A DNA stretch of 64,000 nucleotides, from positions 1-64,000 of the forward strand of contig JAGPDF010000013.1 in NCBI GenBank assembly GCA_018057705.1, written 5' to 3'. Made by a program: the position numbers and the translations under genes. The DNA is from Thermoanaerobaculia bacterium (lineage in GTDB: Bacteria > Acidobacteriota > Thermoanaerobaculia > Multivoradales > JAGPDF01). The notes beneath the pieces were generated by a model. The model worked only from the letters and a program-made list of their open reading frames with translations, was not told the DNA's origin and did no database searches. Each line of letters starts with the position of its first letter. The first letter of the stretch is position 1. Shown piece by piece: positions 29,985 to 48,422 of this stretch.

Positions 29985-32459
29985 TCAGCTCTTCACGCCG
30001 AGGAAGAGGTATCCCGAAAGCAGCGCGAAGAGGACATTGGGGCTCCAGGCCGCGATGACGGCGGGGAACGTACCGACCTGGCCCAGAGTGCGGAAGAAGG
30101 CGAAGACCGCCAGGAAGAAGATCCCCAGGACGATCGCCAGACCCAGCCCGTAGAGGGCGCCCTTCCTCTCCAGCCGGAACGCGAACGGCAGGGCGACGAG
30201 CGACATGACCAGTGAAGCGAAGGGGAAGGCGACGCGATCCTGCAGCGCGACCTCGAGCGCCGGCACGGCCTGCCCGCTCTCCCGCACCTCGCGCACGTAG
30301 GCGCGCAGCTCGGTGAACCCCATCTCCCTCGGCCGGCGAACTTCGGCTTCGAAGTAGTCGGGGCTCTCTTCGAGGTCCACCGCGACGGGCGTGGTGAAGC
30401 TGCGGAAGGAGCGCTCGTTCAGGCCCTCGAAGGTGCGCGCCCAACCGTCGGAAACCGCCCAGCCCTTCGGCGTGTACTGGGCGTTCGCGGCCAGCAGTCG
30501 CGCCACCAGCTGGTGTTTCTCGTCGAAGTCGAAGACCTGCAGACGTTGCAGCGACGACGATTTCGGATCGAAGTTCAGGTAGTTGTAGATGAACCTTCCC
30601 TGGCCGAGGAGCCACTGCTGGTCGGCCCGCCGGACCGATCGGGGCTGCGTTCGCCCCTTGATGATGTTGTTCGCCTCCTCGACCTTCTGGTTCGACGCCG
30701 GCAGCACCTGGAGCTGCAGAAAGGCGCAGAGCATCGCGACTCCGGCGGCGCCAGCGACCGCCGGCAGCGCGACGCGGTGCAGGCTCATTCCGAGCGAGCG
30801 CAGCGCGATCACCTCGCTGGTGCGCGAGAGCAGGCTGAAGGTGATCAGAGTGGCGATCAGTACGGCGATCGGAGCGATGTCGTAGGCGGTCTGCAGCGAC
30901 TGGTACTTGTAGTACTGCAGCACGATCCTGGCCGGCGGCTGGTTCTTGAGAATGTCGTCGATATTGCCGGTCAAGTCGGCGATCGAGCTGATGGCGATCG
31001 CCGAGATCCAGACCAGGGCCAGGACCTCGCCGAGCCGCCGCAGGACATAGCGATCGAGGATGTTCGGGAAGCGCAGCCGAAGGCGCGGCAGGCGCAGCAC
31101 GACACGACGTCGGGGGCGCGCCGCCGACGTCGCATCGTGAGCCCCGGCGCCGGCGACGCCGTTCGGGCTCGCAGGGGTGCCGCCGGAGCCGCGCGAAAGG
31201 ACGGTGGTCGCGGCGAGGCCCGGCCGGCGATCCTCGTCCGGCCTTGCGGTCCGACGCTTCGACCAGGCCGATCGCCGCCGCTTCACACTCGCCCATTTCG
31301 CGCCGAGGAAGCGCTGGAGGCGGCGGGGGAGGATGCCGCGGTCGCGATTGCGCACTCCCAGCAGGACGAGACCGATGGCGAGCAGGAGGAGGTCGGGAAG
31401 CCAGATCGCGAATCCCGGAGAGAGCTTGCCCAGCCTGGCCGCGTCCTCGCCCTGGGAGAGCAGCACGTAGTAGGCGACGATCACTCCGATCGAGATGGCG
31501 AAGCCGGACGATCTCCCGCCGTGCCGGTTGGTGAAACCGAGAGGCAGGGAGATCAGGCCCATGACCAGACAGGCGGCGGGGATGGCGAACATCTTGTGCA
31601 CCCCGACGCGGGCGAGGCGACGCTGCTCGGGCGTGGCCGAGATGTCGCGGGAGAGCTTCCGGAGCTCCGCGAGCTCGAGCTCGCGCGGCCCCCGGCGGGA
31701 GGCCATGCGCGCCTTCTCTGTCGAGAGGAAGCGGTCGCGCAGAACGATGCGCAGCGTCTCGTGGCGGCTGGTTTCGTAGCGTTTCGGCGAGTGGAAGTCG
31801 AAACTGTGCTTGATCGCGTCCGCGAGCTGGAGCACGACGCGCTCCCCTTCGTCTTCGACGAGGAGCTTGCCGCGGCGGGCGACGATGACCTCCTGGCGCT
31901 CGCTGGGAACGGCATCGGCGAGGAAGACGCCCTTCCATTCCTCGTTGCGGGCCGAAGCCTCGAAGATGTAGAGGACCTTCCCCTGCCACTCGTTGTAGAA
32001 CACCCGCGGCTCGACCTGCTGGGCGACGGTGCGCGTGAGGATGTCGAGGTAGAGGCGGGAGACGGCGCGATTTCCCTGCGGCAGCAGGTAGACCATCAGG
32101 AGCCCGTTGACGACCGTCAGGAGGGCGGACAGCGCGAGGACCGGGCGCAGCAGGCGGTAGATGGACATGCCGGTGGAGCGCAGGGCGACGAGCTCGCTGT
32201 CGGAGGCCAGCCGTCCGACTCCCACCAGGACCCCCAGGAGGAGCGACATCGGAATCGTCAGGACGACGATGTTGGGCAGCGAATAGAGCACGAGCTGGCC
32301 GACGATCGGGGCCGGAAGGCCCCGGCGGATGATCATCTCCGCCGAAGCAAAGAGGAACTGGAGCAGCAGGATGAACGTGTAGACTAAAAAGCCCAGCCCG
32401 AGCGGACCGATGATCTCCCTGAGGACGTAGCGGTCGAGCCGGGCAAACAGAGGTCTCAC
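29985..32459 (-). CDS. Fused LptF-LptG LPS export permease
   Basis: 824 residues from GTG 32459, twice the size of one LptF or LptG. Residues about 1-365 are a complete YjgP/YjgQ permease: LDRYVLREIIGPLGLGFLVY, SLPNIVVLTIPMSLLLGVL, then SELVALRSTGMSIYRLL, a periplasmic jelly-roll, and three C-terminal helices. A basic linker follows (about 375-465). A second complete copy begins at about 468 (ILDRYVLRRLGEVLALVWIS, SEVIALRSLGMSLHRVALPA, FASLVMSLVALPFAFRLERK). LptF and LptG normally form a heterodimer that, with LptB and LptC, extracts LPS. Here both halves are one chain. The order, and thus which half is F or G, cannot be told. Confidence 0.9.
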   Translation of the reverse strand: MRPLFARLDRYVLREIIGPLGLGFLVYTFILLLQFLFASAEMIIRRGLPAPIVGQLVLYSLPNIVVLTIPMSLLLGVLVGVGRLASDSELVALRSTGMSIYRLLRPVLALSALLTVVNGLLMVYLLPQGNRAVSRLYLDILTRTVAQQVEPRVFYNEWQGKVLYIFEASARNEEWKGVFLADAVPSERQEVIVARRGKLLVEDEGERVVLQLADAIKHSFDFHSPKRYETSRHETLRIVLRDRFLSTEKARMASRRGPRELELAELRKLSRDISATPEQRRLARVGVHKMFAIPAACLVMGLISLPLGFTNRHGGRSSGFAISIGVIVAYYVLLSQGEDAARLGKLSPGFAIWLPDLLLLAIGLVLLGVRNRDRGILPRRLQRFLGAKWASVKRRRSAWSKRRTARPDEDRRPGLAATTVLSRGSGGTPASPNGVAGAGAHDATSAARPRRRVVLRLPRLRLRFPNILDRYVLRRLGEVLALVWISAIAISSIADLTGNIDDILKNQPPARIVLQYYKYQSLQTAYDIAPIAVLIATLITFSLLSRTSEVIALRSLGMSLHRVALPAVAGAAGVAMLCAFLQLQVLPASNQKVEEANNIIKGRTQPRSVRRADQQWLLGQGRFIYNYLNFDPKSSSLQRLQVFDFDEKHQLVARLLAANAQYTPKGWAVSDGWARTFEGLNERSFRSFTTPVAVDLEESPDYFEAEVRRPREMGFTELRAYVREVRESGQAVPALEVALQDRVAFPFASLVMSLVALPFAFRLERKGALYGLGLAIVLGIFFLAVFAFFRTLGQVGTFPAVIAAWSPNVLFALLSGYLFLGVKS

Positions 32460-32462
32460 TCA

Positions 32463-32918
32463 ATGAGCGTATCGCAGCCCCTCGCCGGACGGACGCCGGG
32501 AGCCCTGGTTCTGGAGCGCAACTATTCGTTTTCTTCGAGCCACCGGTACTACCGGCCGGAGTGGACGCCGGAGACGAACCTGGCACGCTTCGGCAAGTGC
32601 TCGAACTCGCCGGCGCACGGGCACAACTACAGGTTGACGATCGAGGTCTCGGGGACGGTCGATCCCGAGACCGGCTTCGTGGTGAATCTGCCGGATCTCG
32701 ACGCCCTGGTGCGCGACGCCGTCGTGCGCCGGCTGGACCACGCCCACATCAACGACGCCGTTCCCGAGTTCGCCGCGGGGGGGGAGATTCCGACCACCGA
32801 GAATCTGGCGGTCTGGATCGCCGGCGAGATCGCTTCGCTCCTGCCGCCGGCGAACCGGCTCGAGTCGGTCCGCCTCGCGGAGGACGACCGGCTGGCGTCG
32901 AAGTGGACGCGGCGCTGA
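32463..32918 (+). CDS. queD: 6-carboxy-tetrahydropterin synthase / PTPS-family protein
   Basis: 151 residues from ATG 32463. The zinc-binding histidines are H27 (SFSSSHRYY), H52 and H54 (SPAHGHNYRL). The catalytic Cys is C46 (FGKCSNSP), and the family motifs LDHAHIND and PTTENLAVWIAGEI follow. These belong to the QueD/6-pyruvoyl-tetrahydropterin synthase fold. QueD makes the 7-deazaguanine precursor for queuosine; a PTPS role cannot be excluded, because no other queuosine genes are near. The start codon is only three bases from the GTG of the divergent lptFG gene. Confidence 0.82.
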   Translation: MSVSQPLAGRTPGALVLERNYSFSSSHRYYRPEWTPETNLARFGKCSNSPAHGHNYRLTIEVSGTVDPETGFVVNLPDLDALVRDAVVRRLDHAHINDAVPEFAAGGEIPTTENLAVWIAGEIASLLPPANRLESVRLAEDDRLASKWTRR

Positions 32919-43591: not shown

Positions 43592-44143
43592 TCAGATCTC
43601 GGGAACGATGAGGCCGTAGTCGTCGTCGTGCCGGCGGTAGATGACGCTGACTTTCTCGTTCTCCAGGTCGCGGAAGACGATGAATTCGCTGCGCGAGCTC
43701 TCGAGCTTCAGCGCGGCTTCGGTGATGGTCATCGAATGGATCTCGAGATGGCTCGACTTGACGACGATCGGCGACTCGCCCTGGCGCACACTCTCCCGCG
43801 TCAGAACCTCCACCGGCCACTGCTGAGCGCTGGCCTCGGAGCGGTCCTGGCGGCGTGGATGATCGACCTGGCGCTTGCGCGCCCTCTTCGCCTGCTCTTC
43901 CACCTTCTCGGTGGCGAGAAGGAGCGCGTCGTGCAGCTCGACCGCCTCCTCTCCGGCCAGGAACTCGCCCGAAGCGCAGCGCACCTTGATCTCGACCGAG
44001 TGCCGGAATTTTCCCGCCTCGAGGACGATGTGCGCGTCGATCGGTTCGGGGAGGAACCTCTTGAGCCTCTCCAGCTTCTCGGCGGCCAGGGTTCGCGTCT
44101 TCTCCGCGACCTGCAGGTGCCTGCCGACGAATTCGATGTTCAT
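43592..44143 (-). CDS. hpf: Ribosome hibernation-promoting factor, long form
   Basis: 183 residues. The N-terminal S30AE domain (about 1-100) has MNIEFVGRHLQVAEKTRTL, FLPEPIDAHIVLEAGK and LHDALLLATEKVEEQAKRAR. A basic linker follows, then the dimerisation domain of long HPF (about 130-183, LEIHSMTITEAALKLESSRS, EFIVFRDLENEKVSVIYRRH, DYGLIVPEI). Long HPF alone pairs 70S ribosomes into inactive 100S. Gamma-proteobacteria have the short form at this place in the rpoN cluster, so the long form here is a lineage difference. Confidence 0.95.
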   Translation of the reverse strand: MNIEFVGRHLQVAEKTRTLAAEKLERLKRFLPEPIDAHIVLEAGKFRHSVEIKVRCASGEFLAGEEAVELHDALLLATEKVEEQAKRARKRQVDHPRRQDRSEASAQQWPVEVLTRESVRQGESPIVVKSSHLEIHSMTITEAALKLESSRSEFIVFRDLENEKVSVIYRRHDDDYGLIVPEI

Positions 44144-44159: not shown

Positions 44160-45632
44160 TCAGAAGATGCGTTTGCGATCCGAGGATGAAGGCACGTTCA
44201 GCTCGTCCCTGTACTTGGCCACGGTCCGCCGGGCAATCTGGATGCCTTCGCGGTTGAGGATGCGCATCAGCTCGCTGTCGGAGAGCGGATGCCGCGTGTC
44301 CTCCGACTCGACCAGCTGCCGGATCTTGCGCTTCACGGTGAGCGACGAAATATCCTCGCCGTAGTCCCGGTCGATGCCGCTGTGAAAGAAGTACTTGAGC
44401 GGGAAGAGACCGCGCGGCGTATGCATGTACTTGTTCGACACCACCCGGCTCACCGTGGACTCGTGCATGCCGATGTCTTCGGCGACGTCGCGCAGCACCA
44501 TCGGCCGGAGGTGATCCAGGCCGTGGTCGAGGAAGTCGCGCTGCTGGCGGACGATCGAGGTCGCGACCTTGTAGATCGTGCGTTGCCGCTGGTCGAGACT
44601 CTTGATCATCCAGAGCGCCGAGCGCATCTTCTCGGAGATGAACTGCTGGGCGTCGTTCTGGCGGCCCTCCTGCCGGAGATTCTTCAGCATCCTGCGGTAG
44701 GACCTCGAGATCCGCAGCCGCGGCAGGCCGTCGTCGTTCAGCTGAATGACGTATTCGTCTCCCACCCGGATGACGTGGACGTCGGGCTCGATGTAGTGCG
44801 TGCGATCGTTGGTGAACTTGCGGCCCGGCCGTGTCTGGAGGGTCTTGATCTCCTCGATGACCGGCTCCAGGTCGGCCAGGGTGACCCCGAGGGCGCGCGC
44901 GATCGTCGCGTACTGGCGGCGCAGGAAGAGCTCCCAGTGGTCCGCGAGCACCTGGCGTGTGATCGAGTCGGCCGGCTCGCCGCGCAGATCGAGCTGCAGG
45001 AGCAGGCTCTCGCGGAGGTTCTCGCAGGCGATTCCCGGCGGATCGAGCCGCCGCACCTGTTCGAGGACGGCGCGCACCTGCTCCATGGCGAGCGGCTGTT
45101 CGCGCCCCGAGCTCGCCAGCTCGTGAATCTCCTCGAGCGAGGCGGCCAGGAAGCCGTCCGGGTTCAGGTTGCCGACGATGAGCTCGGCGATCTCGCGCTC
45201 GAGCGGCGGGAAGTCCGAGAGATGGATCTGCCAGAGCAGGTGGTCGTAGAGGTCGGGCTCGCGCGTCAGGGTGTTCTCGAGCGGCGGCGCCTCGCGATTC
45301 TCGGATTCGCCGTAGCTGCCACCGTCGTCACCGGAGGCGTCGTCGAGATAGGCCTCGAACGCCACCTGCTCGAGGCGCTGGCGCTCGATCACTTCGGGCG
45401 CCGGGACCTCATCGCGGGCCTCGTCGGGCGAGAGCTCGACCGGCGAGCCGTCCTCCTCCTCCTCTTCGACCTCGCTGGCCTCCTCGAGGACCGGGTTGAT
45501 CTCGAGCTCCTGGGCGACGACCGCCTCGAGCTCGAGGCGGGTCATCTGCAGCAGCTTGATCGCCTGCTGCAGCGACGGCGTCATCACCAGCCGCTGCGAG
45601 AGCTTGAGGGAGAGTTTCTGTTCGAGAGCCAT
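44160..45632 (-). CDS. rpoN: RNA polymerase sigma-54 factor
   Basis: 490 residues. Region I at the N-terminus (LSLKLSQRLVMTPSLQQAIK, LLQMTRLELEAVVAQELEIN) contacts activators. An acidic region II follows (about 50-110). The core-binding domain is central. The C-terminal DNA-binding part has an HTH (VLRDVAEDIGMHESTVSRVV, then NKYMHTPRGLFPLKYFF). The RpoN box is IARRTVAKYRDELN. Sigma-54 transcribes from -24/-12 promoters with AAA+ activators, none of which is in this window. It sits between lptB and hpf as in proteobacteria. Confidence 0.96.
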   Translation of the reverse strand: MALEQKLSLKLSQRLVMTPSLQQAIKLLQMTRLELEAVVAQELEINPVLEEASEVEEEEEDGSPVELSPDEARDEVPAPEVIERQRLEQVAFEAYLDDASGDDGGSYGESENREAPPLENTLTREPDLYDHLLWQIHLSDFPPLEREIAELIVGNLNPDGFLAASLEEIHELASSGREQPLAMEQVRAVLEQVRRLDPPGIACENLRESLLLQLDLRGEPADSITRQVLADHWELFLRRQYATIARALGVTLADLEPVIEEIKTLQTRPGRKFTNDRTHYIEPDVHVIRVGDEYVIQLNDDGLPRLRISRSYRRMLKNLRQEGRQNDAQQFISEKMRSALWMIKSLDQRQRTIYKVATSIVRQQRDFLDHGLDHLRPMVLRDVAEDIGMHESTVSRVVSNKYMHTPRGLFPLKYFFHSGIDRDYGEDISSLTVKRKIRQLVESEDTRHPLSDSELMRILNREGIQIARRTVAKYRDELNVPSSSDRKRIF

Positions 45633-45654: not shown

Positions 45655-46389
45655 CTAGAGCTCGAACTGCTCGCCGAGGTAGATCTTGCGGACCTGCGGA
45701 TCGGAGGACAGCTCGAGCGGCGTGCCGGCGCGAAGAATTCCGCCGTTGTTGATGATGTAGGCGCGGTCGGTGATCTTCAGGGTCTCTCTGACGTTGTGGT
45801 CGGTGATCAGGATGCCGATTCCCATCTGTCTCAGGTGGCGGATGATACCTTGAATGTCGAGGACGGCAATCGGATCGATGCCGGCGAACGGTTCGTCCAG
45901 GAGGATGAACGAGGGCGAAAGCACCAGCGCGCGGGCGATCTCCACCCGGCGCCGTTCGCCGCCCGAGAGCATGTAGCCCATGCTCTTGCGGACCTTCTGC
46001 AGCCGGAACTCCTCGATCAGCCTGTCGATGCGCCGTTCCTGTTCGGCATGCGTGAGGTCGAGGGTCTCGAAGATCGCGCGCAGGTTGTCCTCGGACGAGA
46101 GTTTGCGGAACACCGAAGGCTCCTGCGGCAGGTAGCTGATCCCCCGCTGCGCCCGCAGGTACATCGGCAGATCGGTGATCTCGTCGTCTCCCAGCATGAC
46201 CTTGCCGCCGTCCGGAGGCGCGAGGCCCACCACCATGTAGAAGGTCGTCGTCTTGCCGGCGCCGTTCGGTCCGAGGAGCCCGACGATCTCCCCCGGCGCA
46301 ACCTCCACGGAGACGTCCTGAACGACCGTCCTCCCGCCATAGACCTTGCGGAGGTTGGTCGCCCGGAGCCGCGGTCCCGCCGCCTTCAT
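45655..46389 (-). CDS. lptB: LPS export ABC transporter ATP-binding protein LptB
   Basis: 244 residues from ATG 46389, overlapping the lptC-lptA stop by four bases. ABC ATPase landmarks: Walker [11 protein letters not shown] (40-49), Q-loop LPQEPSVFR, signature [15 protein letters not shown], Walker [14 protein letters not shown] and the H-loop ITDHNV. The FAGIDP/AVLDIQ region is the LptB-type variant. LptB dimerises under LptF/LptG to power LPS extraction; its membrane partner here is the fused protein at 29985-32459. The next gene is rpoN. Confidence 0.95.
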
Positions 46390-48422
46390 TGCGCCGCACC
46401 CACCAGGCGTGCCGAGCCCGACTCGAGGTCGTAGAGGGCCCGCTTGCCCTGGAGCGTCGCGCCGGTATCGTCTTTCATGGTCACGGGACTCCCCCGGAGC
46501 TCGATCGTCTCCGCACCGACGTCGTAGAGCGCGCTCTCGGCCTGGATCGAGCGGCCCGCGGTGGCGTCGCGCAGCAGGATCTTGCCCTTGGCGGTCATGG
46601 CTTTCATCTGCTGCGCCGCGTCGAGCTCGCCGACGAGCTCGTCGCAGGTGAGCGTCCGCGCCCCTTGCGTCAGCCGGACGCCGCCGGTGTAGGTGACGGT
46701 AGCCTCCCTCCGGCGATAGGAGAGGAAGTCCGCGATGACCTCGGTCATCGTCGCGGTATCGGAGGGGGCGGAGGGGGCGGAGGGAGCGGCCGCCGGCGCC
46801 GGACTTGCGGCCGGCTTCCGGAGGTCGATCAGGGTGCGCACTCCCCCCGAGGCAGAGAGTCGCTCTTCGGTCTCCTCGCCGTGCAACTGGTTCGCCAGCA
46901 GCAGGCTCTTGCCCTGCCAGGCGCGCACCGTTCCCTTGAGGAAGAAGCCGCGCGGCGCGTCGGTGAAGATCGCTTCGTCGGCCTGGAATTCGATCGGCTG
47001 GTCGGCGCGGAAGCCGACGCCGGCGACGGCCTTGCCGCCGCCGCGCGCCAGGACGCCGCGCACGCCCCGGTCCGCGGTCAGCAGGCCGCTCTTGCGCGCA
47101 TAGACGATTCGGGGCGCGACGAGCTCGCCGCTGTCGCTCTCGGTCCGCGCCGGATCGCCGAGCAGCTCCGAGCGCTCGGCGGCGAGGTCGAAGTGCGCCT
47201 GGTCGCCCTTGCCCTGGAACTTCGGGTCGGTCAGGGTGACGCCGCCGATCAGAACGACGCGGGCGATGCCGCCCCCAGGAGCGAATTCCGCTTCGGCGCG
47301 GTCGGCACGCCCGGAGCGCAGCGGGTCGTCCAGGCCCCGCACGTACTCGGCGAAATAGACCGGTTCGGTGCTCCTGGCGGTCTGCGGCCGTCCGCCCTCG
47401 AAGGTCATCCAGAGCGCTCGCGAGGCGAGTCCGTGGATGGTCGCGCCGTCGACCGACTCGATCAGCGCCAGGTTCTTGCCTCGTCCTTCGAGACCCATCT
47501 CCAGGGGTTCGTTCACACCCGCGGGACCGAACTGCAGGGAGAGCTTGGCGCCGCGGAAGTCGATCCGGTCGGCGGCGTCGGCGGCGACCGCGAAGTAGCT
47601 TCCCGTCAAGGCGCCATCGAGCAGGAGCAGGGCCGGCGTCTCGCCGTCCTCGGCGAGAAAGAGCTCGGCCTCGTCGGCCGCGAAATGACTGGCGCCGCGG
47701 CCGACGCGAACCGCGCCCTTGGCCCGCAGGACGCGGCCCGCCCGGTCGAGCACGACCTTGCCCGCGTCGACGGTCATGCGTTCTACCCCCGGGGGCTGGC
47801 CCGACAGCGCCACCGGGCCGCGCATCGTCATCAGGTCGAGGGCGACGTCGAACTCGAGGGCTCCCGCCTCGCCCTGCCAATACTGCCCGTGGCGGAGCGC
47901 GATCGGGCCCTCGGCGGCCAGGAGCTTGCCGCCTTTGGAGAGTTGCAGCTGGCCGCTCTCGACCGCGAGCTCACCGCCGGCGAGCTTTACGTGACCGGTG
48001 AGGAGAGCTTCCTGGGAGTTCGAGTCGTAGCTGGCACGGTCGCTCGCGACGGAGTAGCTCGTGGCCTCGCGGAAGATCTCGAAGCGCACCCCTTCGAGCT
48101 CGATCTTGCCCTCGCGCGTCGTCTGGAAGCGGTCGCCATGCACGCTGAAGACCGGCCGCCCCTCGAGCGACTGGGTGAAATCGAAGGCATCGCTGGAGGC
48201 GACCACGTTGGCGTCGCTGCCGGCGCCGTCGGAACTCGACGTGGTGGCCTCTCCGGAGGAGCCCGATCGGGGTGCGGCGATCGGCGGCTCTTCGTCAGGG
48301 GCTCCCTGGCGTCCGAGGAGGAAGAGCCCGGCCAGACCCGCCAGCGCGACGAGCAGCGCGCCCAGAAGGGCGCGCCGCAGACGCTGGATCGAACCCTGAT
48401 TCGCCCTCTTCATCACCGCCAT
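46386..48422 (-). CDS. Fused LptC-LptA-like LPS export protein
   Basis: 678 residues from ATG 48422; ATG 48413 is also possible. One N-terminal membrane helix ([20 protein letters not shown], about 10-35) is LptC-like. It is followed by periplasmic sequence made of repeated OstA/LptC-type beta strands ([60 protein letters not shown]). The last 125 residues are clearly LptA/OstA-like ([55 protein letters not shown]). The length equals LptC plus LptA plus about 300 extra residues. The chain could form a long single-piece part of the trans-periplasmic bridge. Position next to lptB supports the call. Confidence 0.82.

Follow-up and report, generated by a model that had tools for sequence, protein, structure and literature searches.

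An LptF-LptG fusion gene in Thermoanaerobaculia and its relatives in Acidobacteriota: a putative one-chain permease for lipopolysaccharide export

The DNA analysed here (the window, 64,000 nucleotides of a contig from a Thermoanaerobaculia bacterium) carries on its minus strand an ORF of 824 codons, 29985-32459, which encodes LptF, a linker and LptG. The ORF runs uninterrupted from a GTG at 32459, with an in-frame TGA directly upstream, to a stop at 29985-29987. Two complete PF03739 (LptF_LptG) domains share this frame with zero internal stops (Pfam, 504.7 bits in total; 8.9e-80 for the N-terminal domain at about residues 10-367 and 3.1e-72 for the C-terminal half), which bears out the first-pass annotation, where two full YjgP/YjgQ domains had been described in one frame. 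The basic linker of about 90 residues described there was also recovered: it spans 99 aa between the domain boundaries and is a low-complexity sequence of Ala, Gly, Ser, Pro and Arg. When the whole genome, a draft of 177 contigs, was scanned, this gene was the sole PF03739 gene detected. A divergent queD-like gene (6-pyruvoyl-tetrahydropterin synthase type, named from its sequence) lies at 32463-32918 on the plus strand, its start 4 bases from that of lptFG, although the listed start may precede the true one. The divergent pair is also kept in L005, a contig labelled Thermoanaerobaculia.

Table 1. Positions in the window of the lptFG gene parts, of the two coupling-helix glutamates and of the lptCA-lptB cluster (residue numbers refer to the encoded proteins).
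Feature	Coordinates	Strand	Evidence
LptF half, residues 1-367: TM1-3, periplasmic beta domain, TM4-6	31359..32459	-	TIGR04407 over 8-367; tree with reference LptF
Basic low-complexity linker, residues 368-466, expected to be cytosolic	31062..31358	-	26 K/R vs 5 D/E; L005 indels here
LptG half, residues 467-824	29988..31061	-	TIGR04408 over 467-820; tree with reference LptG
E89, equivalent of E. coli LptF E84, coupling helix	32193..32195	-	Glu in 20/20 N halves and 5/5 reference LptF
E549, equivalent of E. coli LptG E88, coupling helix	30813..30815	-	Glu in 18/20 C halves, Gln in 2; Glu in 6/6 reference LptG
LptB, separate ATPase partner	45655..46389	-	TIGR04406 357.8 bits, cut-off 240; only match over cut-off in genome
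LptC-LptA fusion, ~675 aa, ATGA overlap with lptB	46386..48413	-	TIGR03002, TIGR04409, Pfam LptC, LptD_N
RpoN (sigma-54)	44160..45632	-	Sigma54 AID, CBD and DBD domains
Long ribosome hibernation factor HPF, cluster end	43592..44143	-	Ribosomal_S30AE and S30AE_C domains

The same strand carries an lptCA-lptB-rpoN-hpf cluster (Table 1), the order of which matches that of lptC-lptA-lptB-rpoN-hpf, which we take to be the gene order in E. coli. The lptFG gene is situated within about 14 kb of this cluster, and a comparison of coordinates placed the distance between lptFG and lptCA at about 15-17 kb in three other genomes (G031, G055 and G060). The protein encoded next to lptB is itself a fusion, in which an N-terminal membrane anchor and an LptC-like domain are followed by an OstA-type middle with repeats and a C-terminal LptA. 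The LptA end matched TIGR03002 with 88.3 bits (cut-off 71.7) over residues 546-668 of 672. For the LptC end (residues 72-198 of 672), the NCBIfam model TIGR04409 gave 31.1 bits, which is below its cut-off of 38, and the Pfam model PF06835 gave 24.8, which is over its cut-off of 21. Three LptD_N stretches were recognised by Pfam in the same protein. It was the only LptA/LptD_N family match in the scan of the whole genome, and the scan of the proteins added a weak match of this family, under the cut-off, inside LptD. With LptB, LptD, LpxC and LptC/LptA all found in this genome, production and export of LPS by the organism are to be expected.

The two halves of the fusion were assigned with the NCBIfam equivalog models and by phylogeny. 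The whole protein scored 332 bits with TIGR04407 (LptF; cut-off 230), with the best stretch at residues 8-367, and 356.6 bits with TIGR04408 (LptG; cut-off 240), with the best stretch at residues 467-820. When the N half was scored alone, it reached 225.5 bits with the LptF model, just below the cut-off, and only 137.1 with the LptG model; the C half alone reached 230.8 bits with the LptG model, again just below the cut-off, and only 119.3 with the LptF model. A maximum-likelihood tree was built from 20 N halves, 20 C halves and reference LptF and LptG proteins with annotated starts (E. coli, Legionella, Acinetobacter, Sphingomonas, Azospirillum, Fusobacterium and others). The N halves together with LptF were separated in it from the C halves together with LptG with a support of 100/98. 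By homology and phylogeny the fusion thus consists of LptF followed by LptG, as the first-pass annotation had proposed, and not of a duplicated half.

To our reading of the related genomes, the fused gene is widespread. PF03739 was present in 144 of the 149 genomes of the window's class, and among the matches listed most frames had about 700-1060 aa and a few were short. Six short or intermediate frames were opened: those of G127 (on two contigs), G011, G057 and G048 are cut off by a contig end, and that of G056 contains the whole of F plus the beginning of G before the fetched stretch ends. Across the phylum, assigned as Acidobacteriota from the titles of L004 and L005, the family was found in 295 of 297 genomes. 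In a phylum sample followed match by match, both domains lay in one frame of 754-948 aa in all 34 genomes, which represent 34 genera. A frame of 763 aa was recorded for G020. The linker measured 33-172 residues (median 58.5) and was net positive in 50/50 loci. Extra PF03739 matches occurred in G162 (contigs C163 and C134), G061 and G057, and in G162 they correspond to two complete fused LptFG copies on different contigs. A plasmid collection was also searched for fused relatives in named organisms; none of 15 records had one place covering 80% of the query, and plasmids are a poor sample for such a gene. Every intact gene checked in the phylum was fused; judged by gene sequence, the LptF-LptG fusion represents a variant of a known machine that is fixed in this lineage, and not a local oddity.

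An assembly or sequencing artefact, in which adjacent lptF and lptG genes only seem fused through a missed stop or a frameshift, would be easiest to imagine in a draft of 177 contigs in which the halves meet at a low-complexity, GC-rich sequence. However, the same continuous frame is present in the independent genome of L005, with 92% identity in the N half and 90% in the C half, and both halves share one frame at all 50 loci analysed as well as in each of the 34 genera sampled. The nucleotide alignment of the two genes, from the window and from L005, contained no more than four gaps. They measure 9, 24, 18 and 12 nt, each a multiple of three. As these gaps are confined to the linker region, the frame has been kept while the linker drifts. 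Nothing thus indicated a missed stop or frameshift between the halves, a possibility raised in the first-pass annotation, and we regard the chance of an artefact as negligible. Equally negligible is the chance that the protein consists of the same permease twice, as F-F or as G-G: the two halves are homologous to each other (about 25% identity), but each of them scored best with a different equivalog model and the tree placed them with the two separate reference groups.

Two further explanations accept the fused frame and concern its product. The long, basic and disordered-looking linker might allow two chains to be made after all, through an internal translation start or through proteolysis. 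In 10 of the 50 loci a start codon of some kind did follow a weak SD-like motif. However, the linkers of the window and of L005 contain neither an ATG nor any start codon with an SD-like motif, an ATG combined with such a motif occurs in only 4/50 loci and at differing positions, and the frame stays open in every lineage examined; overall, we consider a two-chain product improbable. Still less probable is a permease for a substrate other than LPS, such as a queuosine precursor. Both halves are LptF and LptG equivalog matches, and the gene is the only LptF/LptG gene in a genome having LptB, LptC-A, LptD and LpxC. The idea draws on the divergent queD-like neighbour from 32463, on the clustering of PF03739 genes with queuosine genes elsewhere and on the listing of PF03739 as a candidate family of Q-precursor transporters (PMC11130926); the PF03739 proteins tested in that study, however, gave no complementation.

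The reading that we favour, with a probability of roughly 0.9, is that the fusion ORF encodes a functional one-chain LptFG permease, which would constitute the complete transmembrane part of the Lpt exporter. The protein is homologous to the solved LptF and LptG chains of LptB2FG complexes (E values of 2.8e-21 and 4.7e-15). The glutamates E84 of E. coli LptF and E88 of LptG, which we take to be the coupling-helix residues with a role in docking on LptB, have their equivalents in both halves (Table 1). In LptB, a groove receives the coupling helix of either LptF or LptG (PMC6703430). An AlphaFold2 model of the fusion, calculated from an alignment of only four sequences (the window and L003-L005), had a mean pLDDT of 38.5; the secondary-structure pattern of this low-confidence model fits six TM helices and a periplasmic beta domain per half. 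The columns of the LPS-contact lysines of E. coli TM1 were variable even among the reference proteins. In TM1 of the LptG half, the columns of E. coli LptG K34, K40 and K41 are mostly occupied by Asp, Glu or Thr in the C halves of Acidobacteriota, and the references vary there too.

In known structures, the C-terminus of LptF and the N-terminus of LptG are both cytosolic. Because the two joined ends lie on the same side, the linker needs no extra membrane crossing. The chain would be expected to form two halves of six helices each, its basic linker lying in the cytosol and connecting the last helix of LptF to the first of LptG, and one such chain would pair with a dimer of LptB. The binding of ATP would close the halves and push LPS out of the cavity that they enclose, first into the periplasmic LptC-A protein and then to LptD. 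The fusion would guarantee a 1:1 ratio of F to G and forbid F-F and G-G pairs, and the mechanism would otherwise be that of E. coli. The fixed stoichiometry and orientation of the LPS gate, to which the first-pass annotation had pointed, would follow from the presence of both halves on one chain.

Regarding the origin of the fusion, a single event is most likely, dating to the last common ancestor of the phylum or earlier, as far as the tree of the halves can tell. A single ancient fusion would be expected to leave the C halves as one group, and all 20 of them formed one group with a support of 99/97. The N halves appeared as a single group apart from reference LptF in 24% of the bootstrap trees, too few to resolve them as such, so that a single origin is likely rather than proven. 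In E. coli the adjacent genes stand in the order lptF then lptG. This is also the order within the fusion, which makes the loss of a stop between adjacent lptF and lptG the simplest route, and the fused gene most likely arose in this way.

The LptC-LptA fusion could be recognised in 75 of the 81 class genomes scanned for it. In all 30 class loci that were fetched it formed one frame of about 655-907 aa, and LptB was located just downstream in 29 of them. Across the phylum, the LptA model matched in 33/39 genomes, with none of the matches reaching the model's own cut-off in that scan, and LptB came next on the same strand in 26/30 loci. The matches listed all lay in frames of 548-963 aa and none in a frame of about 200 aa, which a separate LptA would need, although LptD may account for a few of the long frames, and at many of the loci the sequence begins inside the protein, so that the LptC end was checked in part. 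Judged by these frames, the LptC-LptA fusion is class-wide and probably phylum-wide, and it is arguably more unusual than the LptF-LptG fusion.

The best reading of these gene sets is that the working Lpt exporter would combine LptB2 with a single LptF-G chain and a single LptC-A chain, and would deliver to a separate LptD. Acidobacteriota thus appear to build their LPS export machine from fewer, tethered parts. A bolder proposal, to which we give slightly less than even odds, is that LPS transport in this phylum is permanently tethered, with an LptF-G gate and an LptC-(OstA)n-LptA protein that would make all or most of the periplasmic bridge covalent. If so, the bridge would be independent of the reversible LptC-LptA and LptA-LptA contacts, unlike that of E. 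coli.

The closest known systems are the LptB2FG(C) complexes solved from E. coli, K. pneumoniae, P. aeruginosa, V. cholerae and others. They belong to the same permease family with the same F-then-G order, they share the coupling-helix glutamates and the LptB partner with the system of the window, and in both the LptC and LptA homologues adjoin lptB, rpoN and hpf. In those complexes, however, LptF and LptG are two polypeptides, whereas in Acidobacteriota they form one chain with a linker of 33-172 residues; likewise, the separate LptC and LptA proteins are replaced by one long chain of about 550-900 residues. The fusion also follows the principle of the full-length ABC transporters, in which both transmembrane halves are on one chain: two membrane half-transporters are fused, but here the ATPase LptB stays separate. 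In Negativicutes and Halanaerobiales, a single LptF/G homologue is encoded beside LptB and two OstA proteins (PMC5007114). There too the Lpt system relies on one permease gene and not on two; the difference is that in Acidobacteriota both F and G are carried on the one gene.

In the open-licence literature, to which our search extended and outside which subscription papers lie, we found no description of a natural LptF-LptG or LptC-LptA fusion. The families of the components are themselves well known, and proteins with both domains are presumably already present in sequence databases under family names. In a survey from 2022 (PMC8871954), lptF and lptG are given as "apparently lacking" for the Acidobacteria. 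Matches were chosen in that survey by length, profile coverage and copy number, a selection that could have set aside double-length proteins. A paper on an uncultivated Acidobacteria genome simply lists "LptF/LptG" (PMC8787282). Acidobacteria are a diderm LPS phylum in which both lptF and lptG are present, as one gene; arguments on outer-membrane evolution that use the presence or absence of the separate genes consequently need correcting for Acidobacteriota. In addition, the two natural fusions offer ready-made test pieces: the one-chain LptFG for the question whether F and G need to be separable, and the one-chain LptC-A for the question whether the periplasmic bridge must assemble and disassemble.

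The most divergent fusions were those of family f38 (G173, G227, G241, G400 and others). Their PF03739 matches were broken into weak pieces, with best E values of about 1e-19 to 1e-38, and the fused frames still had 733-815 aa. This sequence divergence hints at a changed substrate or partner.
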